64,000 nt of DNA, from positions 372,001-436,000 of the forward strand of contig JABFQY010000001.1 of the NCBI GenBank assembly GCA_013141415.1, read 5' to 3'. Below the pieces are notes generated by a model. That model was not told the origin of the DNA. It ran no database searches and saw only the letters and a program-made list of their open reading frames with translations. Shown here one piece after another: positions 27,689 to 60,332 of this stretch (positions are counted from its first letter, which is position 1; the number at the start of each line of letters is the position of its first letter). The DNA is from Kiritimatiellaceae bacterium (GTDB lineage Bacteria > Verrucomicrobiota > Kiritimatiellia > Kiritimatiellales > Tichowtungiaceae). Both the position numbers and the translations under genes were made by a program.

Positions 27689-29710
27689 CTATTTCAGTTG
27701 CGTCGGCATCTCGGGGGCCGTACCGGGATTTTGCACCGGTTTCTCGGCTGATTTCGTCGAGGCTCTCTTTTGTTCCTTAACGGCCTGCTGTTCAACCGTT
27801 GCCTTTTCCGCCTTGTAGAACTTGTTGAGCTGGTCGGCGGCATTGCGGGCTTTGTTATCATCACCTTTCAGCTGATAGGCCTGGAAAAGACCGATCCAGA
27901 CGCGGCCGTTGCGAGGTGTGATATCGGCGGCCTTTTCCATGTAGGCCAGACCTTTGGAGAGCTGTTTCTGGAGGATCAGGCTTTGTCCAAGGCCAAGCCA
28001 TGCGCCAGCCATTTTAGGGCTGTTTTGAGTGAGGGCTTCGTAAAAACTTTGCGCTTCCTGAGGCCGGTTGAGCGCCAGATAGATTCCTCCGGCGCCGATC
28101 AGCCGGGCCGGGTTGCCTGCTTTAACAAAGCCCTTGCTCTGTTCCAGATAGTCAGTGCGGGATTTTTCGAGAATCGCAACGCCTTGGCTCTGAATGGATG
28201 CATCTTTGATGAGCGTTTCATATTCCGGCAGGTTGCGAACCAGGATAACCGTCGCTCCGTCAAAATAGACCAGCTTCCAGACTCCGGAAGAAATCAACCG
28301 GTTGGCCAATGCTCCGGCGTCCGGCCAGCATCCGTTAAGAACGACGGCGTGCGGGTTCCAGTCCGACAGGATGGTTTTCCACGCGCCCGGCTGTCCGCGC
28401 AGAGCGGCATCGAGTGTCTTGTAGAATTCTTCTCCGTAGAACGATGTGCGGGTGTCGCAGAAAATTTTCCGGCCCGGAGCCTTCAAAGCGATGTACCCGC
28501 CGTCGTGCGCGATATTCAGAATGTTTTTCGGGAAATCGGCGCGCGATAGAATACCGGCTGCCGCTACGGGGAATGCGCCGTCTTCGATGCCCAGCCCGAA
28601 CCGCGAAGCACTGCCGATGTGGGTGTAGGTCCGGTTTGTGACCAGCGATCCGGTGGAGATGACGATTAAGATCAGCGTGATGACGGTCAGCACATCGTGA
28701 AGCATCGTATCGCTGGTTTTGAACACCATGGTCAAGGTGCGGGAGAGATATTCGCTGACGGCATTAAAGCTCAATATGATGAAAGGGAACGCGAGAAAGG
28801 CGAACAGATGCGTCATGTCGGGAGAGATCACGGAGAGTATTGCGCCTGTCAGCGCCAGCAGAGTGATCATGGTGGGAAGTCGTTTCTGCAGCGTAATCAG
28901 TCCGCCGGCACCCAGCAACAGCGCAAAGCGGGTCAGATTGTTAAAGAAGTCCTGCGAGAAAAACTGGCCGAAGAGAGATACCCACTCGATATTTTCTTTT
29001 CCCGTCAGCACCAGCCAGTTGGAGAAAATATGGCGGTGCAGATTGATCAGGTTCGGGTTGATCAGAGTAACCAGTAATGCGGCAACGGAAAGGCCGAAGA
29101 GCTTGGTCGTCAGCGGCGTGACCATCGCGGTGCGCGAAGCGTTGCGGGTTTTCTGCCAGTTTTCGAAAGCGAAAAAGAGGATCAGCGCAGGGCCAAACAG
29201 AAAAGAGGGGTGAATGTTGGTCCAGAGGATTTGCAGCACCATGAGAAGAACGGCCAGCAGGTTGAAGTTCTTAACGCGATAGAGCAGGGTTAAAAACAGC
29301 GCGGAGAAAAGCATAAAGAATATGCCCGGGCCGGGGTTGAATACCGGAACCAGCAGGCGTGCGCAAAGAAGCAGCGCCAGCCCTTGGCTTACCGGGCCGC
29401 CCCATTCTTTGCTGAAGCGGAGCATCATGATGAAAGCCGCCAGCAGGGCCAGAACATGAACCAGTGTGACGAGTCCGGCTCCGCCCAGATTCCAGAAGAA
29501 GGAAACCATGCTGTTGTAGAGCGGGTTCATATCGATCCACGGCTGACTGCTCATGGTGTACGAAAGAGGATCTGCCGAAACTCCGCCCGCCTGACCCAGC
29601 GCGATATGCGTGAAGATATCCGGACTGCTGATGGTGCGTACGCCGGTGAGGGCGAGAAGGAGGAATCCGAGAACAACCAGAACGAGACCGAGCGATTTCT
29701 TGTTACTCAT
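27689..29710 (-). CDS. polytopic membrane protein with C-terminal TPR repeats
   Basis: About 673 residues. The first 380 contain some ten to eleven hydrophobic helices in a GT-C-like arrangement, with PDIFTHIALGQ in the first loop. A soluble region follows (IAHDGGYIALKAPGRKIFCDTRTSFYGE), then two or three tetratricopeptide repeats (about 560-640) and a low-complexity tail. It may be a membrane glycosyltransferase-like protein, but no catalytic motif is certain. The start is the ATG at 29710 with GGGAG upstream; the frame continues to a TTG at 29737. Confidence 0.75.
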   Translation of the reverse strand: MSNKKSLGLVLVVLGFLLLALTGVRTISSPDIFTHIALGQAGGVSADPLSYTMSSQPWIDMNPLYNSMVSFFWNLGGAGLVTLVHVLALLAAFIMMLRFSKEWGGPVSQGLALLLCARLLVPVFNPGPGIFFMLFSALFLTLLYRVKNFNLLAVLLMVLQILWTNIHPSFLFGPALILFFAFENWQKTRNASRTAMVTPLTTKLFGLSVAALLVTLINPNLINLHRHIFSNWLVLTGKENIEWVSLFGQFFSQDFFNNLTRFALLLGAGGLITLQKRLPTMITLLALTGAILSVISPDMTHLFAFLAFPFIILSFNAVSEYLSRTLTMVFKTSDTMLHDVLTVITLILIVISTGSLVTNRTYTHIGSASRFGLGIEDGAFPVAAAGILSRADFPKNILNIAHDGGYIALKAPGRKIFCDTRTSFYGEEFYKTLDAALRGQPGAWKTILSDWNPHAVVLNGCWPDAGALANRLISSGVWKLVYFDGATVILVRNLPEYETLIKDASIQSQGVAILEKSRTDYLEQSKGFVKAGNPARLIGAGGIYLALNRPQEAQSFYEALTQNSPKMAGAWLGLGQSLILQKQLSKGLAYMEKAADITPRNGRVWIGLFQAYQLKGDDNKARNAADQLNKFYKAEKATVEQQAVKEQKRASTKSAEKPVQNPGTAPEMPTQLK

Positions 29711-48866: not shown

Positions 48867-49784
48867 CTACTCGTCGAAGTAATCGGAATCTATCTTTTTC
48901 ACTTCGTACTGGCCGACGGTCGAGACCCCCACATTATGGTCTGTCATTAAGGTTGCCAATTGTTCTCCGTCGATGAGGATGATTTTTACGTCTATGAGTG
49001 CAACGTATTCTCTGGCTTCTTTTGTGAATGATGAAGTAGTAATGAAAACGCCTTTTTTTGCCCGTTGCCCTTGGAGTGCTCCTGCAAACTTTTGAATTTC
49101 TGGACGCCCAACAGTGCCTTCCCAGCGTTTAGCTTGAATATAGATCACATCCAAGCCGAGTTTGTCTTCGTTAATGATTCCGTCAATACCTCCATCACCG
49201 CTTTTTCCTAAAGCTTTTCCGGCGTTCCGGCGGTTTCCTCCGTATCCCATTTGAACCAAGAGATCGACGACAAGCCTTTCGAAAAATGACGGGGAGGCTT
49301 CTTTCACGGAGCTTAAAATTTCAGATTCAAGAGCGCTACGTAGCTGAGCGTATGCCGTAGCAAGAGTGTCCTCAGGGGTCTGGTGCTCAGCGGGTTCAGA
49401 CTGAATTGTAATGTCATCTTCGAGACCCGTTCTTTCTCTTTTCCGATTTCTGAATTCGATGAATTGCGGGAACTGTTCCAAAACAGACGCATTAATCTTC
49501 GAAGGGTTGGTTTGCAGGAATTTCAGACCACAGTCAGTTATTGTAAAAAAACCGCGTTTGGGAGAGTTAAGAAGGCCGGCTTGTTTTAGGTAGGATCGAG
49601 CCCATCCGACACGGTTATTGAAGACGGCCTGACTGCCACTAGGGAGAAGCTCGTTTTTTTCATCATCGGTTAGCAAAAACTCGTCGGCAAGGAGTTCAAC
49701 AGCTTTGCTGAATTTATGCTCTGCACCATCTGAAGCCAGTTTTAAAACGGGGAGCATGAGCGTCTGATAGTCTGGTATGGCCAT
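48867..49784 (-). CDS. mrr: Mrr-type restriction endonuclease
   Basis: A 305-residue protein: an N-terminal winged-helix Mrr domain (about 1-90), a charged linker, and a C-terminal PD-(D/E)xK catalytic domain with GDGGIDGIINED (Asp201) and VIYIQAKRW (Gln217, Lys219). Mrr enzymes cut modified DNA as type IV restriction. No methylase is adjacent. The gene is visibly AT-richer than the cys genes around it, suggesting acquisition by transfer. Confidence 0.88.
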   Translation of the reverse strand: MAIPDYQTLMLPVLKLASDGAEHKFSKAVELLADEFLLTDDEKNELLPSGSQAVFNNRVGWARSYLKQAGLLNSPKRGFFTITDCGLKFLQTNPSKINASVLEQFPQFIEFRNRKRERTGLEDDITIQSEPAEHQTPEDTLATAYAQLRSALESEILSSVKEASPSFFERLVVDLLVQMGYGGNRRNAGKALGKSGDGGIDGIINEDKLGLDVIYIQAKRWEGTVGRPEIQKFAGALQGQRAKKGVFITTSSFTKEAREYVALIDVKIILIDGEQLATLMTDHNVGVSTVGQYEVKKIDSDYFDE

Positions 49785-49965: not shown

Positions 49966-51993
49966 CTACTTTGTTGGCGAACCGGCCCGCAAGGACACCT
50001 TCTGAATGCTGATGGCGTCCACGGGGCAGGCGGAAACGCAGGCACCGCAACGGATGCAGTCGTCCTGATTAATCCAGATCAGGTGAACGTCGTCGGCTTT
50101 TTGCGCGAGCGTCCAGCCGGTTACGCGACCTTCGGCGTCGTAATGCAGTTCCTTGATTTTCAGGATGCACTCGGGGCGCGGCTTGGCTTTGACGCACCAG
50201 TCGCAGTAGATGCACTTGTCGGAGTCGATCTCAAACTTGTAGTGGCACTGGTAACAGCGCTGCGCTTCGTCGCCGGAGGTTTCCTTGCCGAAGCCGGTTT
50301 CGACTTCGGTGGTGAGGTCGCGTTGCGACAGTTCAACGGCGGGCATCGGTTGCAGACCGACATAATCCATTTCGCGGATACGGCCGGTTGCGGTGACGTC
50401 TTCGATCACGGCGTAATCGTTCAGCCGGACTTTACCGGTCAGGAACCGGTCAACTTCGCGTACGCACTCCTTGGCGTGGCCGATCGCTTGAATCAGTGAA
50501 CTCGCGCCGTTCTTGAAATCACCGGCGGAGAAAACTTTGGCTTCTCCGGAAGTTTCATCGAGCCATGACGTATCGGGAAACTGTCCGGTCGCCAGCAAAA
50601 CCGTATCCACGACCAGCTCAAATTCACTGCCCGGAATTTCAACCGGACGGCGGCGTCCGCTGGCGTCGGGCGCGCCCATTTCGGTACGGACAAATTGAAT
50701 TGTTTTCAAACGACCGCTGGTACCGGTGTAGGCCTTCGGCGCCACCATGTACTCCATCGGAATACCTTCGTGTTCCAGCTCTTCCAGCTCGCCGGGCGTC
50801 ACCAGCATTTCCGCTGCCGTCCGGCGGTAGCAGACTTTAACCTGCGCGCCGAGCCGCTTGGCGGTGCGGGCGCAGTCCATTGCGGTAAAGCCGCCGCCGA
50901 TGACCACGGCCGTTTTGCCGACGTCGCCTTTCCCGGTTTCGTTCACTTCCAGTAGAAAATCCAGACCGTGGCGGATGCCGTTGAGATCCTTGCCGGGCAG
51001 GTCGAGCAGATTAGGTTTCAGTGTTCCGGCCGCCAGAATTACGGCGTCGTTTTCCTTTGCCAGCGAACTCAGCGTGACGGTTTTTCCAATCTCTGTATTG
51101 CAGATAATCTTCACGCCCAGCGCTTCAATCTGCGCAATTTCCTTGGTGATAATTTCGCGCGGCAGGCGGAAAACCGGAATGCCCTGGTTAATCATGCCGC
51201 CGGGCTTGTTGTGCTTTTCGTAAACCGTCACCTGATGTCCGAGTAGCGCCAGATTGCGCGCCGCCGCCAGACCGGCGACGCCGGCACCGACCACGGCGAC
51301 TTTTTTGCCACTCGGCGGAAACCATTTATTCATCACCACCGGCGACTGTCCGCCGAAGTCAGCGGCGGAACGTTTTGAAAAACAAATTGCTACCGGCTGG
51401 CCGAGTCCGTCCCAGCCGTGGCGGCAGGCCGCTTCACATGGCCGCGCGCAGACGCGACCCAGCACGGCGGGAAAGACGTTGGCTTCCAGATTGATCCGGT
51501 ACGCTTTGTCGTGTTCGCCGCGATAGACGGCGTCGAGGTAGCCGGGAATGTTCGTCGAAGCCGGGCAGGCTTTCTGGCACGGAATATTTTTTTCCAGCCA
51601 GTCGAAATCTTTCGGTGAGTTCGCGCTGCCGCAGGTTTTTGAAAGCGCGCAGAAGGAGTAGGGCGCGTCGCCTTCCGGACGCTTTTCCTGCCAGCCGCCC
51701 AGTTTGCAATCCGGCAGAGCAAGCGGATGGTTGAGCGGTGAATCAGTCCGTGCGGCGTTCGCAATAATCTCCTGCATTTCGGGATCGGCGCTGCCGTGCG
51801 CGATGGCCTGCTCCGCGAAAACCTTCGCCGTGTACACATCGCCGCGCGTCCGGTTGAGCCCGTGGTAAGCCTTGGCGATCAGTTCGCAGATCGGCGCACC
51901 TTCCGGCGGGCCGAGTCGGCAGAGAACGGCAACCGCTTCTTCGCAGCGGTCTGCTTTGATCAGTTCTCCGGCTTCATTTAGCAGTTGTTTCAT
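49966..51993 (-). CDS. GltD-like FAD/NAD(P) oxidoreductase with ferredoxin domains
   Basis: A 675-residue iron-sulfur flavoprotein. Residues 1-85 are helical and TPR-like. A GltD-type [4Fe-4S] domain follows (CQKACP at 139 and VCARPCEAAC at 182-190). The FAD site is VVGAGVAGLAAA (234-245), and the NAD(P) site VIGGGFTAMDCA (364-375). C-terminal ferredoxin motifs are CIYCDWC (594-600) and CIRCGACVSACP (646-657). It lies upstream of the sulfite reductase gene, so it may pass NAD(P)H electrons to that enzyme; this is inference. Frame intact. Confidence 0.85.
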   Translation of the reverse strand: MKQLLNEAGELIKADRCEEAVAVLCRLGPPEGAPICELIAKAYHGLNRTRGDVYTAKVFAEQAIAHGSADPEMQEIIANAARTDSPLNHPLALPDCKLGGWQEKRPEGDAPYSFCALSKTCGSANSPKDFDWLEKNIPCQKACPASTNIPGYLDAVYRGEHDKAYRINLEANVFPAVLGRVCARPCEAACRHGWDGLGQPVAICFSKRSAADFGGQSPVVMNKWFPPSGKKVAVVGAGVAGLAAARNLALLGHQVTVYEKHNKPGGMINQGIPVFRLPREIITKEIAQIEALGVKIICNTEIGKTVTLSSLAKENDAVILAAGTLKPNLLDLPGKDLNGIRHGLDFLLEVNETGKGDVGKTAVVIGGGFTAMDCARTAKRLGAQVKVCYRRTAAEMLVTPGELEELEHEGIPMEYMVAPKAYTGTSGRLKTIQFVRTEMGAPDASGRRRPVEIPGSEFELVVDTVLLATGQFPDTSWLDETSGEAKVFSAGDFKNGASSLIQAIGHAKECVREVDRFLTGKVRLNDYAVIEDVTATGRIREMDYVGLQPMPAVELSQRDLTTEVETGFGKETSGDEAQRCYQCHYKFEIDSDKCIYCDWCVKAKPRPECILKIKELHYDAEGRVTGWTLAQKADDVHLIWINQDDCIRCGACVSACPVDAISIQKVSLRAGSPTK

Positions 51994-52008: not shown

Positions 52009-52884
52009 CCAGCGAATGAATAAAATCTACGAATGGAAAATTAGAGAAGAACTCCTCGTAACGTCAGTTTTGATTTCCCGAAATTCAGCAAAACTCCGGC
52101 AGGAACAAAAAGATGTTTCATACCGCTGCGCAACCGGGCCAGCTCCATGGCGGTGGTATCCTCAAAAGCAGTTACAGAAAGAAGAAGATTTTTATCAATA
52201 AGAACGGAATCCAGCATACGCCGTTCAAAAACGATTCCGTTAAATGACGGGGCCGCTTCCGGCACTTGAGGGTTCAGGTTCTGCCCGGCGAGTTCTCGTC
52301 GCAGAATTTTTTTAGAAGATTCTGCGCCGTAACCAAGGCCGTGCAGCGCCAGAACATTTTTACAAGACGCTCGGATTTTCCCGGTAATATCTGGCATTTG
52401 CGACTCAATGGAATCCCAGCATCCCTCAAAGCAGATTTCCCCGCTGACAGGTGTGTGCGGCACTCGTTTGTAAGACAGACGTTCCAAGCCGAAATTAATG
52501 AGCATCCCGAGGTCTTTTTCCCAGCATTTCAAATAATTGATCAGTTGTGTGTAATGCTGAGATGCAAAGCCGGTCCGGATGTGCTTGAGCTCGAGGATGA
52601 CCCGGTTTCCCGCCAGAATATCCAGTTCAAATTCATCAACCGGGTCATCCCGGTGCATCAGCCGCTTGCTCAAGTGACTTTCAGCGGTCAGGTCTCTTGT
52701 CCGCAAGGCATTCAGCATGGCCCGGTGGTAGTCCCATTCATCCCATCCCGGTCCAAGTTCGTTATGAACATCGAATGCTGCCCCGATAATCTGATGCGAT
52801 AATTCGGGGTGCAACAGATCCGGGTTATATGTTTCATGTTTCGGCATACCAGAGATTTATTCGTAGATTTTATTCATTCGCTGG
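52009..52884 (-). mobile_element. 876-bp cassette with 26-bp terminal inverted repeats (family C)
   Basis: The ends are perfect inverted repeats of 26 bp: CCAGCGAATGAATAAAATCT plus ACGAAT at 52009-52034 and its complement at 52859-52884. Between them is a single gene, 6 bp from one repeat and 11 bp from the other. No target duplication is evident. The right repeat supplies the last codons and stop of the sulfite reductase gene (AGC GAA TGA). A 78-bp relative lies at 57986. Mobility is inferred from structure and repetition. Confidence 0.75.
52041..52847 (-). CDS. GxxExxY protein, PD-(D/E)xK nuclease-like, inside the inverted-repeat cassette
   Basis: A 268-residue protein. The family motif is G34-WD-E37-WD-Y40 in HNELGPGWDEWDY. 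A PD-(D/E)xK-like core follows: Asp76 in FELDILAGN, E86-L-K88 in VILELKHI, and Gln101 in YTQLINYL. The usual family member is about 125 residues; here residues 210-268 look like a second, decayed half copy (LLLSVTAFED to VLLNFGKSKLTL) lacking ExK. No ribosome site precedes the ATG; a six-codon frame MNKIYE in the repeat lies just upstream. Family function is unknown. Confidence 0.75.
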   Translation of the reverse strand: MPKHETYNPDLLHPELSHQIIGAAFDVHNELGPGWDEWDYHRAMLNALRTRDLTAESHLSKRLMHRDDPVDEFELDILAGNRVILELKHIRTGFASQHYTQLINYLKCWEKDLGMLINFGLERLSYKRVPHTPVSGEICFEGCWDSIESQMPDITGKIRASCKNVLALHGLGYGAESSKKILRRELAGQNLNPQVPEAAPSFNGIVFERRMLDSVLIDKNLLLSVTAFEDTTAMELARLRSGMKHLFVPAGVLLNFGKSKLTLRGVLL

Positions 52885-54469
52885 CAATAAACGCCCGGAA
52901 AGCTTCGATTTCGATCCGTTCGCAGAAGTCGGTGAAGAGTTCATTCTGACTGTTACGGTGCTTTAGATAAGCGTTCAGAATCTTCTTCACCGCCGGAACG
53001 ATTTCAGCCGAATCAGCATCGCAAAGCGGTTCGCCGATTTTTCCGGCTTCGCTCAATTTTCCTCCGACAAAGACGGTATAGCCTTCGGTGCTGCCGCCGC
53101 TCTCGTTACGAGTGCGCCGACCGCGCAGTCCGATGTCGGCAATCCAGGCGTGAGCGCAGTTGTTCGGGCAGCCGGTAATGTTAATCCGCAGCGGACCGAC
53201 ATCCTTCCAGTATTTTTCGTCACCGGCCAGTGCGGCGTACAGGCGACGGTAGGCGTCCGGCGAATCGGATACCGCCATCTTGCACATGGTGGTGCCGACA
53301 CAAGCGACAATATCCGGCAGGTGTTCGTGACCGCTGGTGCGGAAGCCTGCGGCATGCAGCGCCTCCAGCAGCGCCGGAACGTTGGCGTCTGGAACGTCGT
53401 GCAATTCAATATTCTGACGGTTGGTGAACATGATTTTTCCGCCGCCGAGTTTATCGGCCAGCCGCGAAATGATTCTGGACTGCGCCGTCTTTAGCTCCGA
53501 GCGCGGAATCATTACTCGCACGACGCTTAGTCCGGCCTGTTTCTGTGGAATGATTTCCTGACCGTTCAGTAGCATTCTTCCAATGTTTGGAAGCGGATTT
53601 TTGGCATATTCGATTTGCTCAAGTCCGGTGATGCCACGCTCCTTCAGAATGTCCATGACGACATCGCCGAAGCCTTTGGCGCCCATCTTATCGACGACAA
53701 TTTTCAGGCGGGAGAAGGCGCGGTTGCGCCGGTCGCCGTGACGGCGAAACGCTTCCACGGTGGCGCGGGCGACCGGCAGTACCAATTCTTCCGGCACCCA
53801 GTCAAAAATTACTTTGGCCAGATAGGGACGAGCGCCGAGTCCGCCGCCGGCATGGAATTTCCAGCCGACTGTGTCGCCGCGTTTTACCGGCACCCAGCCC
53901 TGGCAGTTCATCAGCGTCTGCGCGCCTGCTTCGTTGGCGAACGCTACGCTGATCTTGTGTTTGCGCGGAAGGTTGCGCTGTAAATCGCGGATTTCATGGT
54001 CGGTCGCCAGCATTTGGATGATTTTGTGCGAGTCGCCGATCTGTTCTTGAGCGACGCCTGCCAGCGATGAGCCGATGATATTGCGCGGTACGTCGCCGCA
54101 ACCGTTCTTGGTGGTGATGCCGACTTCAGCCATGCCTTCGATAATTTTATAAATGTCCTCTTTGCGGATCCAGTGGTACTGAAGCGTCTGGCGGGTGGTG
54201 ATGCACAGCTCGCCTTGCGCGAATTCTTCAGCCAGATCAATCGCGCGGTTAAACTGCGCGGTTGTCATCAGTCCGCCAGGGGTGACGACACGGATCATAA
54301 AAAAGCTAGGCTGAAGCTGGTGGTAAACGCCACTCCATTTAAACATCGCCAGCTCGTTCGGCGTGATTTGATCAAAAGGGCGGGTGGCAATCTCGCGGAA
54401 ATCGAAGTCCGGGTTGATTTCGAGTTTATCGCGTTCGACCTGCGTTAATTCCGGTTGTGCTGTCATCAA
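52874..54469 (-). CDS. sulfite/nitrite reductase hemoprotein (siroheme, [4Fe-4S])
   Basis: A 531-residue siroheme reductase of the ferredoxin/NirA-like type. The cofactor ligands are C-x5-C at 390-396 (CVGTTMC) and C-x3-C at 434-438 (CPNNC). TTRQTLQYHW (91-100) belongs to the substrate and siroheme pocket. With APS reductase upstream and siroheme genes next door, sulfite is the likely substrate. The final residues come from the family C repeat. A family A palindrome codes LPNIGR (293-298). Confidence 0.9.
   Translation of the reverse strand: MMTAQPELTQVERDKLEINPDFDFREIATRPFDQITPNELAMFKWSGVYHQLQPSFFMIRVVTPGGLMTTAQFNRAIDLAEEFAQGELCITTRQTLQYHWIRKEDIYKIIEGMAEVGITTKNGCGDVPRNIIGSSLAGVAQEQIGDSHKIIQMLATDHEIRDLQRNLPRKHKISVAFANEAGAQTLMNCQGWVPVKRGDTVGWKFHAGGGLGARPYLAKVIFDWVPEELVLPVARATVEAFRRHGDRRNRAFSRLKIVVDKMGAKGFGDVVMDILKERGITGLEQIEYAKNPLPNIGRMLLNGQEIIPQKQAGLSVVRVMIPRSELKTAQSRIISRLADKLGGGKIMFTNRQNIELHDVPDANVPALLEALHAAGFRTSGHEHLPDIVACVGTTMCKMAVSDSPDAYRRLYAALAGDEKYWKDVGPLRINITGCPNNCAHAWIADIGLRGRRTRNESGGSTEGYTVFVGGKLSEAGKIGEPLCDADSAEIVPAVKKILNAYLKHRNSQNELFTDFCERIEIEAFRAFIASE
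53578..53592. repeat. exact family A palindrome inside the sulfite reductase gene
   Basis: TTCCAATGTTTGGAA, identical to the copies at 14118 and 61189, read on the minus strand as LPNIG. It sits between the two halves of the reductase, near residue 295. Confidence 0.75.
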
Positions 54470-54551
54470 ATTATTTCCCCCAAGTTGCCGCCGGATAATT
54501 CACTGGCCAACTCTTCTATTTTTTCTCATCCTGCGCACGGGTTTTCGGGTG

Positions 54552-54601
54552 TTGACTTCGACTTAAAAGTCATATACCTAAAACGTGATAGTATTTATCA
54601 C
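54552..54601 (+). promoter_or_regulatory. promoter and operator-like dyad upstream of the CysG-HemA gene
   Basis: TTGACT (54552-54557) and TACCTA (54575-54580) are spaced 17 bases apart, with TATACC overlapping. Just downstream is GTGATA-GTATT-TATCAC (54585-54601), a perfect dyad placed where a repressor would block this promoter. The same gap serves the divergent sulfite reductase gene. GTGATAA also occurs upstream of cysH. The regulator is not identified. Confidence 0.55.
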
Positions 54602-54617
54602 TAAAAGAGATAGAACC

Positions 54618-55961
54618 ATGTCTGGAGCGCCATTGTCAAAAAAAATGTTTCCGGCCGCCCTTATTTTAGAGGGACGGAAATGTCTGCTTGTCGGCGGCGG
54701 GCGGGTCGCCGTGCGGAAAGCCGCCAAACTGGCCGAGGCCGGCGCGGCACTGACGGTGGTGGCTCCGGAAATCAAACCGCCGATTAAAGCACTGTCCGGC
54801 ATCAATTTGGTTGAGCGCTGTTTTGTCCCCGAAGACCTCGACGGAGCCTTTCTGGTTTTTGCTTTGACGGATAATCCGGTGCTTAACCGCCGGATTGTCG
54901 AACTCTGCCGCGAGAAGAAAATCCTCTGCTCGGCTGCCGACGGCAACTGGCCTGACGGCGATCTGATTCTGCCTGCCAGTTTCAGCGAAGACGGACTAAC
55001 CGTTTCTGTCAGCACGTCAGGACGCTCCTGCCGCCGGTCGCGCCTTCTGCGCGAAAGCCTCAGCCGCCACGTCCGCTTTCTGCGCGACATCGATCTGATT
55101 GTCATCGGCGCGGATCACAGTACCGGCGGCTTTCAATCGGTGGAAAAACTGAAAGCCGCCCGGACGGAACTCGAAGAATTGCTGCCGTGTGTCTGGGGCG
55201 TTCATGAATTTATGATTCTAGATACCTGCAACCGCTTTGAAATCGTCGCGCTCATTTCTTCTGGCTCCTGCGCGGCGGTTGAAACTGTTTTACGGAAAAC
55301 GTCCGACGTTTTTGTCTCCAGAGGAATGGACGCTTTCTGTCGGCTGGCCGAAACTGCCGCCGGACTCCGTTCACAGGCTTTCGGTGAAAGTCGTATCGTG
55401 GCTCAAATTAAACAGTCGCTCGCCGATGCACAGGAAAAAGGGTTTGCCGGAAGTTTTCTTCAAAACTGGACGGATACGGCTCTCCACATCTCTAAAGAAA
55501 TCCGGCAAGTGACCGGTTCGTTGCTGCCTGCGCTGGAAACGGAAGATCTTGTTTCCCAGACCTTGAAGAGAAATCTTCCAGCCGTTGGAAAGGTTTTGAT
55601 TATTGGTCGCGGCGAAATCGGACAGGGACTGGCGCGCCGCTTTCCGGATGCCGTCCAAATCAGCGGACGCTCTGACGATGAACTCCGTCAGCAACTGCCT
55701 CGCGCTGATGTAATCATTTGCGCCACCGGTAGCGCCGGTTTTCTCATCGACGAATCACACCGTCCGCTTTTGCGCGCCGGAGCTGTCCTGATTGACTTGT
55801 CCCTGCCGCGCAATATCAACCCGGAACTTCCCGGTGTCATCGGACTGAGCGCGTTGCGCGCCGCCGTACCGCCGGGAAATGCGGACGAACTTTTCGCAAA
55901 GGCCCGCGAAATAATCAATGCACACCGCGACGAATACGACCGGCTGGTGAAATTCCAATGA
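54618..55961 (+). CDS. hemA: CysG N-terminal domain fused to glutamyl-tRNA reductase
   Basis: About 447 residues. The first 155 form a siroheme-synthase N-domain (precorrin-2 dehydrogenase/ferrochelatase) with LVGGGRVAVRKAAKL. From about 160 a glutamyl-tRNA reductase follows: ILDTCNRFEIVAL with the catalytic Cys (about 204), FGESRIVAQIKQSL and the NADPH site IIGRGEIGQGLA. The C-terminal helical dimerisation domain of standard HemA is missing. ATG 54618 is chosen; an upstream ATG at 54585 falls inside the operator dyad. A family A copy codes LPAVGK. It overlaps the next gene by ATGA. Confidence 0.88.
   Translation: MSGAPLSKKMFPAALILEGRKCLLVGGGRVAVRKAAKLAEAGAALTVVAPEIKPPIKALSGINLVERCFVPEDLDGAFLVFALTDNPVLNRRIVELCREKKILCSAADGNWPDGDLILPASFSEDGLTVSVSTSGRSCRRSRLLRESLSRHVRFLRDIDLIVIGADHSTGGFQSVEKLKAARTELEELLPCVWGVHEFMILDTCNRFEIVALISSGSCAAVETVLRKTSDVFVSRGMDAFCRLAETAAGLRSQAFGESRIVAQIKQSLADAQEKGFAGSFLQNWTDTALHISKEIRQVTGSLLPALETEDLVSQTLKRNLPAVGKVLIIGRGEIGQGLARRFPDAVQISGRSDDELRQQLPRADVIICATGSAGFLIDESHRPLLRAGAVLIDLSLPRNINPELPGVIGLSALRAAVPPGNADELFAKAREIINAHRDEYDRLVKFQ
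55576..55590. repeat. family A palindrome inside the CysG-HemA fusion gene
   Basis: TTCCAGCCGTTGGAA, preceded by CTTGAAGAGAAATC, which resembles the left half of the double element at 35024. It codes LPAVGK just before the NADPH-binding strand, at a domain boundary. Confidence 0.65.
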
Positions 55962-57985
55962 AACGACCGATCAAAACCGGAACACGCTCCAGCCGTCTGG
56001 CGCTCATCCAGACGGAATCCGTGCTCTGTCTTTTGCGCGAAAAGATTTCTGGTCTGGAATGGGAGCTTGCTCCCTTTTCCAGTCCCGGCGACCGCGACAA
56101 AATCGCCGATCTGACGACGGCGCCGGACGATTTTTTCACGCGCGACCTCGACGAAGCGCTGTTGGCCGGGTCCATCGACTGCGCCGTCCACAGCGCCAAA
56201 GATTTATCCGATCCATTGCCAGCCGGTCTGGATTTTTTCTGGATGCCCGACTCCGCCGATCCGCGCGACGTGCTGGTCGGGTCGCTGACGCCGCGTACCG
56301 TCGGCGTCAGCAGCGACCGCCGCGCCGCGTATGTAAAAAAAAGGTTTCCGTCGGCGGAAATCAAACCGCTGCGCGGAACCATTGAAGAACGGCTCGCGCA
56401 ACTTGACGCCGGGAAATTCGATGTGCTTATCATGGCCGCCGCCGCGCTCCAGCGGTTGGGATTAGACGATCGAATCGCCGAATGGATTTCACCGGACGAT
56501 CTTCCGGTTCCCGACGGGCAGGGCGCGCTGGCGCTGACTTTTCGTTCCGGCGACGAACGCTTTCTCCGGCTTCGCTCGCTCTTCATCAAACCGATTGTTT
56601 TTGTCGGCGCGGGCATGAATGCCGGACTTTGCACGCAGTCGGGCGTCGCGGCGCTCCGACGCGCCGAAGTCTGTCTGTACGACGCGTTGCTCGACGAAGC
56701 CCTGCTGGCCGAACTGCCGGAAACGGCCCGGAAAATTTTCGTCGGTAAACGTAGCGGACAGCACAGCAGGTCGCAGGATGAAATCTGTAAACTGATTGCC
56801 CGTTTCGCCCGGCAGGGAAAGCGCGTTGTGCGGTTGAAGGGCGGCGATCCCGGAATCTATGGACGGCTCGCCGAGGAAATTGATGCGCTCGACGCGCTTC
56901 AGCTTCCGTATCGCGTTGTTCCCGGCGTCAGCAGTTTAAGTTCAGCGACGACCGGAACCGGTCTTCTGCTCACACGACGTGGAACGGCTGACCGTTTTCG
57001 TGTGCTGACGGCAAAAACCGCCGACGGCGGCTCCGGCGAAACCATCGCGGTATTTATGGGAATTCAATCGCTGAAAGAAACAGCGGCGCGGCTTTTGGCT
57101 GAAGGATATTCTCCGAGCCTGCCGGTTTCGGTGGTGCTGGATGCGGGCGGTCCACAACAGCAAATCATTTCGGCACCGCTCGATGAAATCGCCGCGAAGA
57201 TCGGGTCGACGGATTTGCCGGGGCTGGTTTTAATCGGCGAGGCCGCCGAATCAAAATTTATCTACCGCGCTCACGGTGCCTTGCGCGGCAAGCGCGTCTG
57301 GCTGACATGCAGTCGCGACGTTCAGCCGCGCGCCGCGCTGGCGGTTCTCGATTTCGGCGGTGTGCCGGTTCAACAGCCGCTGATTGAACTGGTGCCGGAA
57401 AAAGTTCCTCCGCTTGGAGTTTACGACTGGCTCATTCTGACTTCGCCGTCGGCGGTTCGCTGTCTGCTGGCGCAACTGGATGATTTGCGCGGCCTGCCGA
57501 AAATTATCTGCTGCGGTGAAGGCACTGCCGCCGCGCTGCGCGCTTTCCGGATTCAGACTGATGCGATGCCGCCGGGCGAATTTAATACCGCAGGCGTTCT
57601 GCGTACGGCGCTGGAAGTGATTCCTCCGGACGCGCGGATTTTACGTCTGCGCTCAGATCGCGCCGGAGAAAAACTTTCGGCTGAACTGCGTAAAACATTT
57701 TCACGCGTTGATGATGTCGTGATCTGCCGCAATCAGCCGGTGCGCTGTGAAATGCCCGGATGCGATGCTGTATTTTTTGCCAGCGTTTCGGCGGTGGAAA
57801 GTTTTGTCGAACAGTTCGGCGTTGGAAAACTGGCGGACAAAACGGTTGTTGTGATCGGCGCGCGCGATGCGGAGGCTTTGCGCTGTCACGGCGTCAGTAA
57901 TCTTATTGCACCTCGCCGCGCCACGGTCGAAGATGCGGTTGCCGCACTTGCAGAATTTACGGTTCGAGGTGAAATTGAGAAATGA
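55958..57985 (+). CDS. HemC(truncated)-CobA-HemD triple fusion
   Basis: A 675-residue tetrapyrrole enzyme. Residues 1-208 match porphobilinogen deaminase domains 1 and 2 (TGTRSSRLALIQTE, HSAKDL with the catalytic Asp82, PLRGTIEERLAQLD), but domain 3, which carries the cysteine binding the dipyrromethane cofactor, is absent. Residues 211-438 are uroporphyrinogen III methyltransferase (VGAGMNAGLCTQSG, RLKGGDPGIYGR). Residues 445-675 are uroporphyrinogen III synthase-like. It would take porphobilinogen toward precorrin-2 for siroheme. Frame intact. Confidence 0.85.
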   Translation: MKRPIKTGTRSSRLALIQTESVLCLLREKISGLEWELAPFSSPGDRDKIADLTTAPDDFFTRDLDEALLAGSIDCAVHSAKDLSDPLPAGLDFFWMPDSADPRDVLVGSLTPRTVGVSSDRRAAYVKKRFPSAEIKPLRGTIEERLAQLDAGKFDVLIMAAAALQRLGLDDRIAEWISPDDLPVPDGQGALALTFRSGDERFLRLRSLFIKPIVFVGAGMNAGLCTQSGVAALRRAEVCLYDALLDEALLAELPETARKIFVGKRSGQHSRSQDEICKLIARFARQGKRVVRLKGGDPGIYGRLAEEIDALDALQLPYRVVPGVSSLSSATTGTGLLLTRRGTADRFRVLTAKTADGGSGETIAVFMGIQSLKETAARLLAEGYSPSLPVSVVLDAGGPQQQIISAPLDEIAAKIGSTDLPGLVLIGEAAESKFIYRAHGALRGKRVWLTCSRDVQPRAALAVLDFGGVPVQQPLIELVPEKVPPLGVYDWLILTSPSAVRCLLAQLDDLRGLPKIICCGEGTAAALRAFRIQTDAMPPGEFNTAGVLRTALEVIPPDARILRLRSDRAGEKLSAELRKTFSRVDDVVICRNQPVRCEMPGCDAVFFASVSAVESFVEQFGVGKLADKTVVVIGARDAEALRCHGVSNLIAPRRATVEDAVAALAEFTVRGEIEK

Positions 57986-58063
57986 CCAGCGAATGAATAA
58001 AATTTACGAATACATAGATAAGAGAACTGCAATGTTGATTCGTAGATTTTATTCATTCGCTGG
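57986..58063. mobile_element. 78-bp gene-less family C element (MITE-like)
   Basis: Arms of 26 bp (57986-58011 and 58038-58063) match the cassette repeats at 52009/52859 with one change (TTT for TCT) in the left arm and none in the right. Only 26 bp lies between. The word AAGAGAACT inside resembles AGAGAAGAACT at the cassette's left end, suggesting an internal-deletion derivative. It begins exactly after the stop of the HemC-CobA-HemD gene. Confidence 0.8.
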
Positions 58064-58096: not shown

Positions 58097-59080
58097 ATGA
58101 GCAGATTTCCTGAAACCCGACTGCGGAGGTTGCGCCGCACGGAATCGTTGCGCCGGATGCTGGGACAGCCGTTGCCCGGGCCGGAAAAATTTGTCTGGCC
58201 GGTGTTCCTTCGCGAAGGCAAAAAAGTGGATGAGCCGATTTCCGCCATGCCGGGCCAGTCCCGCATGAGCGTCGATGTGCTGCTTAAAAAACTGGAACCG
58301 GTGGCAGAAAGCGGCGTCGGCGGCGTGCTTCTTTTCGGACTGCCTGATCCGGCGAAAAAAGATGCGAGCGGCTCAGAGGCCTTCAATGAAAAGGGCGCGG
58401 TTCAGCGGGCGATTCCGGCAATCAAAAAAGCGTTTCCGCAACTGACGGTTTTCACCGATGTCTGCCTGTGCGCTTATACCGATCATGGACATTGCGGTCC
58501 GCTGAATAAAGCCGGCGAAGTCGATAACGATGCTGCGCTGACAATGCTGCAAAAGGTGGCGCTTTCGCACGCCGCCGCCGGTGCCGACTGCGTCGCGCCG
58601 AGCGCGATGATGGATGGACAGGTTTTGGCGATTCGCGAAGCGCTCGACGAAGAGGAGCTGACCGACACGCTGATTATGAGTTATTCCAGCAAGTTCGCTT
58701 CATCCATGTACGGCCCGTTCCGCGAAGCGGAGCAGTCGGCTCCCGGCAAAGGCGACCGGCAGGGCTATCAGGCGCCGTACAACGATTTGCGGCAGGCACT
58801 GCGCGAATCGGAGTTTGATGAAGACGAAGGCGCGGATATTCTGATGGTCAAACCGGCACTCTTTTATCTCGATGTGATCCAACAGGTGCGCGAATCAACC
58901 GACCTGCCGGTGGCGGCCTACAACGTCAGCGGCGAATATTCTATGCTGATTGCTCAGGCCGAACGCGGCTGGGGCGATTTGCGCGCCATGGTGCGCGAAA
59001 GCACGGCGGCCATGCAGCGCGCCGGAACCGATATTTTCATCTCTTACTGGGCCAATCAATATGACCGCTTTTTCAAATGA
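58097..59080 (+). CDS. hemB: delta-aminolevulinic acid dehydratase
   Basis: HemB of 327 residues, condensing two aminolevulinate molecules to porphobilinogen. The Zn-type metal site is intact, CLCAYTDHGHCG with three cysteines. Schiff-base lysines sit in SYSSKFASSMYGPFR and MVKPALFYLDVIQ. GAGAGG lies about 6 bp upstream. The 3' end overlaps hemL by 20 bp. Confidence 0.97.
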   Translation: MSRFPETRLRRLRRTESLRRMLGQPLPGPEKFVWPVFLREGKKVDEPISAMPGQSRMSVDVLLKKLEPVAESGVGGVLLFGLPDPAKKDASGSEAFNEKGAVQRAIPAIKKAFPQLTVFTDVCLCAYTDHGHCGPLNKAGEVDNDAALTMLQKVALSHAAAGADCVAPSAMMDGQVLAIREALDEEELTDTLIMSYSSKFASSMYGPFREAEQSAPGKGDRQGYQAPYNDLRQALRESEFDEDEGADILMVKPALFYLDVIQQVRESTDLPVAAYNVSGEYSMLIAQAERGWGDLRAMVRESTAAMQRAGTDIFISYWANQYDRFFK

Positions 59081-60332
59081 AGAACTTTTTGAACGCGCGG
59101 AACGGGTAATCCCCGGCGGGGTGAACAGTCCGGTGCGCAGTTTCCGCTCGGTCGGCGGAACGCCGATTTTTATCGAGCGCGGCGCGGGATCAAAACTTTA
59201 CACCTCCGACGGGCGCGAGCTGATTGATTTTTGTATGTCGTGGGGCGCGCTACTGTTCGGTCACGCCGATCCGGAAATTGTCGAAGCCGTTCAGAAAGCT
59301 GCGGTGGACGGTACCGGCTTCGGTGCGGCGACCCGGCGGGAAGTTTTGTTTGCCGAAAAACTTTGTTCGATGATTTCGTATGTGGAACAGGTGCGTTGTG
59401 TCAGCTCCGGCACGGAAGCGGTGATGACGGCGATCCGCCTAGCTCGCGGCGCAACGGGGCGGGATAAAATTCTGAAGTTCGACGGCTGTTATCACGGTCA
59501 TTCCGATTCAATGCTTGTTTCTGCCGGAAGCGGGCTGCTGACCGGTGGACTGAGTTCCTCCGCTGGCGTTCCGGCGGCGGTGGCGGACGATACGCTGGTC
59601 GCACCGTACAATGACGTCGCGGCGGTGGAAGAAATTATGAAGCATTCCGGCGACCGGATCGCCGCGATTATCGTCGAGCCGGTGGCCGCCAACATGGGCT
59701 TGGTTTTGCCGGAGCCGGGATTTCTCGAAGCGCTGCGCGAGCTGACGGGCCGCTACGGCGCGTTATTGATTTTTGACGAAGTGATTACCGGCTTCCGGTT
59801 CGGGCCGACGACCTACGGCGCGCTGTGCGGAGTGGAACCTGATTTGACCTGTCTCGGAAAAATCATCGGCGGCGGATTGCCGCTGGCCGCGCTCGGCGGA
59901 CGGCGGAAACTTATGGAACAGCTCGCGCCGCTCGGCCCGGTCTATCAGGCCGGAACGCTCAGTGGCAATCCGCTGGCCGTCGTCGCTGGGCTGACAACGT
60001 TAGAGAAAATCGGGCGAGATAATCCGTTTCCGAAGTTTGGAAACCGCGACGAGGGCGTCGCGTCTACGTTTCCAAGATTTGGAAATATCAGCGTTCAGGC
60101 AAAGGGAAGTGCCTTTACGGTTTTCTTCCGGAATGGATTGCCGCGGAATCTGGCGGAGGCGAAAGAGTGTGACACAAAGCGGTATGCCGCGTTTTTTCAC
60201 GGAATGCTGGAACGCGGGATCTATCTGCCACCCGCGCAGTTTGAAACGGCTTTTATTTCTGCGACTCACACCGATGCCGATATCGCCGCGCTGGTTGCCT
60301 CGGCTACCGAGGTGCTGAGTCATGGCGCTTGA
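59061..60332 (+). CDS. hemL: glutamate-1-semialdehyde 2,1-aminomutase
   Basis: HemL of 423 residues, a PLP enzyme making 5-aminolevulinate from the product of HemA. Marks are NSPVRSFRSVGGTP, the PLP Lys in CLGKIIGGGLPLAALGG and the segment GTLSGNPLAVVAG. Residues 322-342 are unusual: PFPKFGN and FPRFGN around RDEGVAST replace a helix that homologues have there. This stretch is coded by two family A palindromes around a family B hairpin. The start at 59061 lies inside the hemB 3' end; the frame is open further upstream. Activity despite the replacement is unproven. Confidence 0.93.
   Translation: MTAFSNEELFERAERVIPGGVNSPVRSFRSVGGTPIFIERGAGSKLYTSDGRELIDFCMSWGALLFGHADPEIVEAVQKAAVDGTGFGAATRREVLFAEKLCSMISYVEQVRCVSSGTEAVMTAIRLARGATGRDKILKFDGCYHGHSDSMLVSAGSGLLTGGLSSSAGVPAAVADDTLVAPYNDVAAVEEIMKHSGDRIAAIIVEPVAANMGLVLPEPGFLEALRELTGRYGALLIFDEVITGFRFGPTTYGALCGVEPDLTCLGKIIGGGLPLAALGGRRKLMEQLAPLGPVYQAGTLSGNPLAVVAGLTTLEKIGRDNPFPKFGNRDEGVASTFPRFGNISVQAKGSAFTVFFRNGLPRNLAEAKECDTKRYAAFFHGMLERGIYLPPAQFETAFISATHTDADIAALVASATEVLSHGA
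60028..60084. repeat. composite A-B-A repeat inside hemL
   Basis: TTCCGAAGTTTGGAA (60028-60042), the perfect hairpin CGCGACG-AGGG-CGTCGCG (60045-60062) followed by TCTAC, and the exact copy TTCCAAGATTTGGAA (60070-60084). The 57 bp is in frame with hemL and has no stop in that frame. Confidence 0.85.

Follow-up and report, generated by a model that had tools for sequence, protein, structure and literature searches.

Relationship to described systems

The REPIN/RAYT (TnpA-REP) system comprises dispersed short palindromic extragenic repeats and a related gene that is flanked by the same repeats, and in both respects resembles the locus considered here, which lies in a contiguous stretch of 64,000 nucleotides of bacterial DNA (the window). 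Whilst RAYTs are Y1 HUH transposases, however, the element in the window encodes only a PD-(D/E)XK nuclease. The intervening sequences of 23S rRNA, with their S23/IVP protein, also place a single small gene between inverted repeats whose arms consist of short tandem units (PMC4990558), but they involve a different protein family and lie inside rRNA, whereas the present element is situated between protein-coding genes. Insertion sequences and MITEs share with it their inverted-repeat ends and the existence of internally deleted and gene-less derivatives; unlike insertion sequences, the element lacks a recombinase of the DDE, HUH, serine or tyrosine type, and no target-site duplication was visible at the copies inspected. 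Homing endonuclease genes, whether free-standing or intron-borne, are comparable in the patchy occupancy of a given site and in having a nuclease fold, yet this element has neither intron nor intein and does have inverted-repeat ends and dispersed hairpins. The closest solved folds are those of the PD-(D/E)XK nucleases archaeal Hjc and Cas4/lambda exonuclease, at 14-16% sequence identity.

We consider it probable, at roughly 0.6, that the locus is a small mobile element delimited by the inverted arms and encoding a single protein, a GxxExxY PD-(D/E)XK nuclease. The open-access literature yielded no paper linking GxxExxY or PF13366 to inverted repeats, and as far as we could see the element family, with its MITE-like derivatives, is undescribed. 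GxxExxY genes, which are without an assigned function, are now tied to specific inverted-repeat ends, hairpins and empty sites, making their function directly testable; were the nuclease to move the element, it would represent a route of transposition built on a Cas4/Hjc-like fold, from which hairpin repeats of the kind seen in these genomes could derive.

The element and the 78-bp hairpin in the window

The features of the two loci, with window coordinates, are as follows.

49966..51993, minus strand: NADPH-dependent glutamate synthase small-chain-like gene, downstream neighbour of the element
52009..52034, plus strand: downstream arm, a perfect inverted repeat of the upstream arm
52041..52847, minus strand: double-domain GxxExxY / PDDEXK_3 gene (PF13366, TIGR04256), 268 aa, the only gene of the element
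52071..52391, minus strand: second GxxExxY domain; every aligned ortholog has lost E-x-K here
52464..52805, minus strand: first GxxExxY domain; D76, E86 and K88 of its PD-(D/E)XK site are conserved
52859..52884, minus strand: upstream arm (in gene orientation), CCAGCGAATGAATAAAATCTACGAAT, carrying the last two sulfite reductase codons and the stop
52874..54469, minus strand: sulfite/nitrite reductase, upstream neighbour, its final codons and stop taken from the arm
55958..57985, plus strand: gene upstream of the hairpin, which we take to be a fused hemC/cobA/hemD-like gene
57986..58063: 78-bp gene-less hairpin (26-bp arm, 26-nt loop, 26-bp arm)
58097..59080, plus strand: gene downstream of the hairpin, presumably hemB

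A preliminary description of this DNA, made from the sequence alone, had reported perfect 26-bp inverted repeats within 6 and 11 bp of the gene, and these coordinates proved exact to the base, the two arms being precise reverse complements. Its account of the surroundings was equally accurate: the last two residues of the sulfite reductase, Ser-Glu, and its stop codon (AGC GAA TGA, 52882-52874) are encoded within the arm; the gene-less copy begins directly after a stop codon, the TGA ending at 57985; the arms of that copy (57986-58011 and 58038-58063) differ by the single base change noted, a C/T mismatch; and no known transposase family is present, the PF13366 gene being the only plausible one between the arms. 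Its reading of the layout as an autonomous element with its MITE is supported by the anatomy, which is that of a MITE, i.e. a short gene-less repeat carrying the ends of a larger coding element, seen both in the 78-bp hairpin and in hairpins of 67-72 bp elsewhere; the word autonomous would apply if the encoded protein is the mover. The terminal inverted repeats typical of insertion sequences are likewise there, without a recognised transposase between them.

The other inverted pairs of 25-27 nt within the surrounding 11.5 kb are 74-76% complementary and none is near-perfect, so that the arms of the element and of the hairpin are the sole near-perfect long inverted repeats in this region and chance is excluded as their origin. 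The RNA fold of the hairpin (57986-58063) has a z score of -12. Contrary to the possibility that the 26-mer is confined to these two places, a search of the 2.2-Mb genome located it at two more (C1:167224-167301 and C6:~29423-29499), each a hairpin of ~78 bp within a short intergenic gap, and a reversed control pattern had no match in the genome. An Rfam search with the element and 20 related loci gave no RNA family above threshold; the element lies between protein genes and has no rRNA match that would indicate a 23S location, and no relative was found among viral contigs. Directly downstream of the glutamate-synthase-like gene is a 305-aa open reading frame (window 48867-49784), which in our estimation resembles an Mrr-type restriction endonuclease.

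The GxxExxY protein

The window protein matches the PF13366 and TIGR04256 profiles well above their curated cut-offs (117.5 bits against 22, and 123.1 against 35, respectively) and consists of two GxxExxY domains in tandem, a duplication absent from the preliminary description. Across seven aligned orthologs and their derivatives, D76 and E86-x-K88 are invariant in the first domain and E-x-K is gone from the second, which on this alignment is presumed to be non-catalytic. An AlphaFold2 model (mean pLDDT 89.7) has as its nearest solved folds SSO0001 (Z 10.8), Hjc (Z 8.4) and nucleases of the lambda-exonuclease type, predicting a Cas4/Hjc-like nuclease fold; a common fold does not imply a common substrate. 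Searching PDB sequences gave marginal matches only (T7 endonuclease I, E 0.67-0.98), and PADLOC and PHROGs gave no match for the window protein but weak Cas4/endonuclease matches for two single-domain relatives. Many of the bacteria searched carry several GxxExxY copies per genome.

Inverted repeats at other GxxExxY genes

Flanking inverted repeats are general amongst GxxExxY genes, and relatives of the window gene thus do not lack them. Each of the six such genes of the window genome sits closely between inverted repeats, and these differ in sequence from one gene to another. Amongst loci with a resolved open reading frame, from several phyla, 57 of 68 have an inverted-repeat score of at least 26 and the remaining 11 lack a clear repeat; a strand-free test at a slightly stricter cut-off (at least 28) gave 51/70 GxxExxY loci against 8/277 position controls. 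The bounded loci include those of Sphingomonas (at the fabD-fabG junction), Bacteroides and Bernardetia, and a large inverted repeat is present at the Gemmatirosa locus as well. In Sphingomonas paeninsulae the fabD-fabG span is 1,699 bp, as opposed to 2,165 bp, and therefore has no space for the element.

The arms have internal structure. Those of single-domain genes are built from three direct ~7-mers spaced 8-10 bp apart (autocorrelation z 6.4, 7.2 and 4.9 at shifts 8, 9 and 10), and those of the window type from two ~8-9-mers per arm. Each protein clade has its own motifs, e.g. CACTAAT, CACGAAT, ACAGGAT, CACGAAA or CGCAAAG. Arm similarity tracks protein similarity with a Mantel r of 0.62 (the best of 5000 permutations reached 0.17), in a permutation test that ignores phylogeny and for a correlation that linkage alone would produce in any unit inherited as a block.

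Proposed mechanism

These observations leave the mobile-element reading well supported, and the anatomy suggests the nuclease as its mover. The earlier proposal that GxxExxY proteins may mobilise such repeats, or travel with them, is thereby supported, the protein's part as agent being again what the anatomy would suggest. Copies of the protein may bind the short repeated motifs of the arms, whether these are in duplex form or extruded as a hairpin; the protein would then cut at both ends of the element and initiate its transfer to a different gene junction. Since the hairpins and the shortened copies retain the arms, they would be moved in trans. Stop codons are present in the left arm of the element, and several copies have an A-rich Shine-Dalgarno stretch after the right arm, so that insertion between overlapping genes of an operon may do little harm. 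More broadly, and tentatively, at somewhat less than an even chance, GxxExxY proteins, which occur in many bacterial phyla, may drive the movement of a distinct class of minimal mobile elements, consisting of arms with or without the gene, that enter operon junctions without a known transposase or recombinase.

Occupied, empty and decayed junctions

Comparison with relatives, as the preliminary description had advised, revealed presence, absence and decay at orthologous junctions. The window site is empty in the congeners G002, G003, G005 and G009, in which the reductase stop overlaps or abuts the start of the glutamate-synthase-like gene. It is filled in G033 and G024, members of another family, where the element occupies the same base as in the window and the reductase again ends in an arm-encoded Ser-Glu-stop. 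Neither G003 nor G005 has the 78-bp hairpin between hemD and hemB.

A second junction, between genes that we take to be ubiA and ubiX, was compared in 27 relatives: nine have empty overlaps, seven full elements and two internally deleted ones; a hairpin of this kind occupies the junction in five, and in the remaining four there is a hairpin or relic that belongs to another arm family. On a ubiA tree in which many branches are weak, these states require at least 15 changes, and one supported clade holds full (G018), empty (G017) and hairpin (G020) states. In G027 this ancestral site holds a hairpin, and the next junction downstream, between ubiX and the presumed ubiD, holds a full element whose arms are identical to those of the hairpin; the similarity of the two runs beyond the right arm into AAAAAGGA, plausibly a Shine-Dalgarno stretch. 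The arrangement fits local movement, short of proof. That the element persists at one junction in genomes distant from each other resembles, in part, vertical inheritance.

Such occupancy is also what might be expected of a selfish nuclease of the homing type, which would cut empty junctions, homology of the flanks then allowing the element to be copied in; the arms would serve mainly to protect the transcript or to end translation. A site that two families have filled at exactly the same base but that is vacant in close relatives, the large number of genomes carrying the element at ubiA/ubiX, and the PD-(D/E)XK fold itself are all compatible with this. However, whilst the window site and ubiA/ubiX fit a pattern of fixed sites patchily occupied, many other sites are used too: arm copies stand by the dozen at unrelated places, different junctions are occupied within one operon, and arm motifs follow the protein clade. 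Homing is accordingly unlikely to account for the family.

Arm families and dispersed copies

Three arm families are associated with double-domain proteins. Kiritimatiellales double-domain orthologs have arms of the form GCAACGAAT-N9-GCAACGAAT, and in the closest orthologs, those of G033, G024 and G027, the arms are the ones seen in the window; between the window genome (G000) and G033/G024 one arm is identical at 26/26 positions, with proteins that are 63-64% identical. Arms of one or other of these two families (CCAGCGAATG... or GCAACGAATG...) were found in 17/18 genomes with a double-domain protein and in 9/40 without (Fisher p 2e-7). The third family, GGCAGAATNATT, initially came to light at ubiA/ubiX, solely in the form of hairpins. 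When this sequence, selected irrespective of any gene, was searched genome-wide and the two arm pairs listed with a spacing of ~800 bp were opened (L289 and L290, in two genomes), both were found to enclose a GxxExxY protein of 256-257 aa with 32% identity to the window protein over its first domain. The two elements lie between a pair of ABC-transporter genes that we take to be BtuF-like and BtuD-like. Degenerate arms of the GGCAGAATNATT family also flank the second double-size GxxExxY gene of the window genome.

Derivatives are common. Internally deleted genes occur between arms of the double-domain family in L027 and as a shortened second copy in L022, and a single genome can contain up to ~40 arm copies of this family, many of them forming hairpins of 67-72 bp. 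Those of G025 have near-identical arms and differing loops, copies in G033 and G024 have loops in common, and the loops of G001 and G007 look alike; a general rule that all hairpin loops are unrelated was accordingly rejected. Because loops are shared in G033/G024 but not in G025, hairpins probably arise in more than one way, and not all are simple recent copies. The window-type hairpins of G033 and G024 (L249-L254, L264) are embedded in a longer repeat, in which sequence conservation extends for ~20 bp to either side of the hairpin (..GAGAATATGA / AACCCTTTGGTTGCGGCTTTG..).

An alternative regarding agency is that a host enzyme, or that of another element, mobilises the arms in trans and that the GxxExxY gene is a passenger aiding maintenance or expression. 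The element indeed holds no classical transposase, and some genomes (G001, G007, G009 and G035, mostly draft assemblies) have arms with no cognate gene detected. Against this, the arms were found to enclose no protein gene besides GxxExxY, the third arm family, once opened, again enclosed GxxExxY, and arm families vary with the GxxExxY clade, not with the host; we regard trans mobilisation as improbable, and favour movement by the encoded nuclease.

Two further sets of repeats were noted. In two different genera, inserts of 161 and 164 bp between GCAACGAAT arms (L152:201-361 and L153:201-364) have a conserved inner sequence unrelated to GxxExxY; they were considered as decayed GxxExxY genes, to which no similarity was found; a small RNA is one possible explanation, an old orthologous copy another. 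The window genome also has another hairpin family, with CGTAGACGCGACGCCCTCGTCGCG arms in 17 copies within 456 kb, mostly as palindromes of ~66 bp, for which no associated gene was found there. Its arms include the following.

G000:C1:103621, 124449, 124917, 185471, 276662, 326345, 439106 and 441693: CGTAGACGCGACGCCCTCGTCGCG arms
window 60045-60068: unpaired single CGTAGACGCGACGCCCTCGTCGCG arm

Orientation and transcript structure

GxxExxY genes are co-oriented with their neighbours in 44 of 45 cases in which both neighbours agree (by a heuristic gene call), a figure that is meaningful against the 50% expected of random insertion and not against ordinary operon structure, in which genes are co-oriented anyway. 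The gene thus lies almost always along the operon and would be transcribed from the host promoter; this sense orientation, with no space for a promoter, suggests expression by read-through.

The same features might be expected of an element acting at the RNA level, like the intervening sequences of 23S rRNA, in which an RNase III-cut stem isolates the gene from the operon mRNA and dispersal is incidental. The strong RNA hairpin and the sense orientation are in keeping with this, as are the inverted repeats of tandem short units at IVP genes in the same genomes and the heptamer repeats of the Coxiella intervening sequence (PMC4990558). In single-domain arms, however, mismatches fall at 14/364 motif positions compared with 40/204 spacer positions (a partly circular comparison), a bias that stem pairing alone does not need, and gene-less copies at new sites would be left unexplained. 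We therefore judge an RNA-level origin very unlikely. That these are ordinary regulatory or mRNA-stabilising operon hairpins with an unrelated gene between them by chance, as their position at gene ends might suggest, is scarcely credible and is already contradicted by the survey, in which the same gene family lies between arms repeatedly, with a control rate near 3%, and by the three double-domain arm families.

The IVP genes merit separate mention. By eye, no arms common to IVP and GxxExxY genes were seen. At PF05635 loci of relatives (L057-L086), which encode the IVP four-helix bundle, inverted repeats of tandem ~7-bp units were present in 15/23 cases as compared with 0/92 controls, and these loci are possibly a parallel element family.
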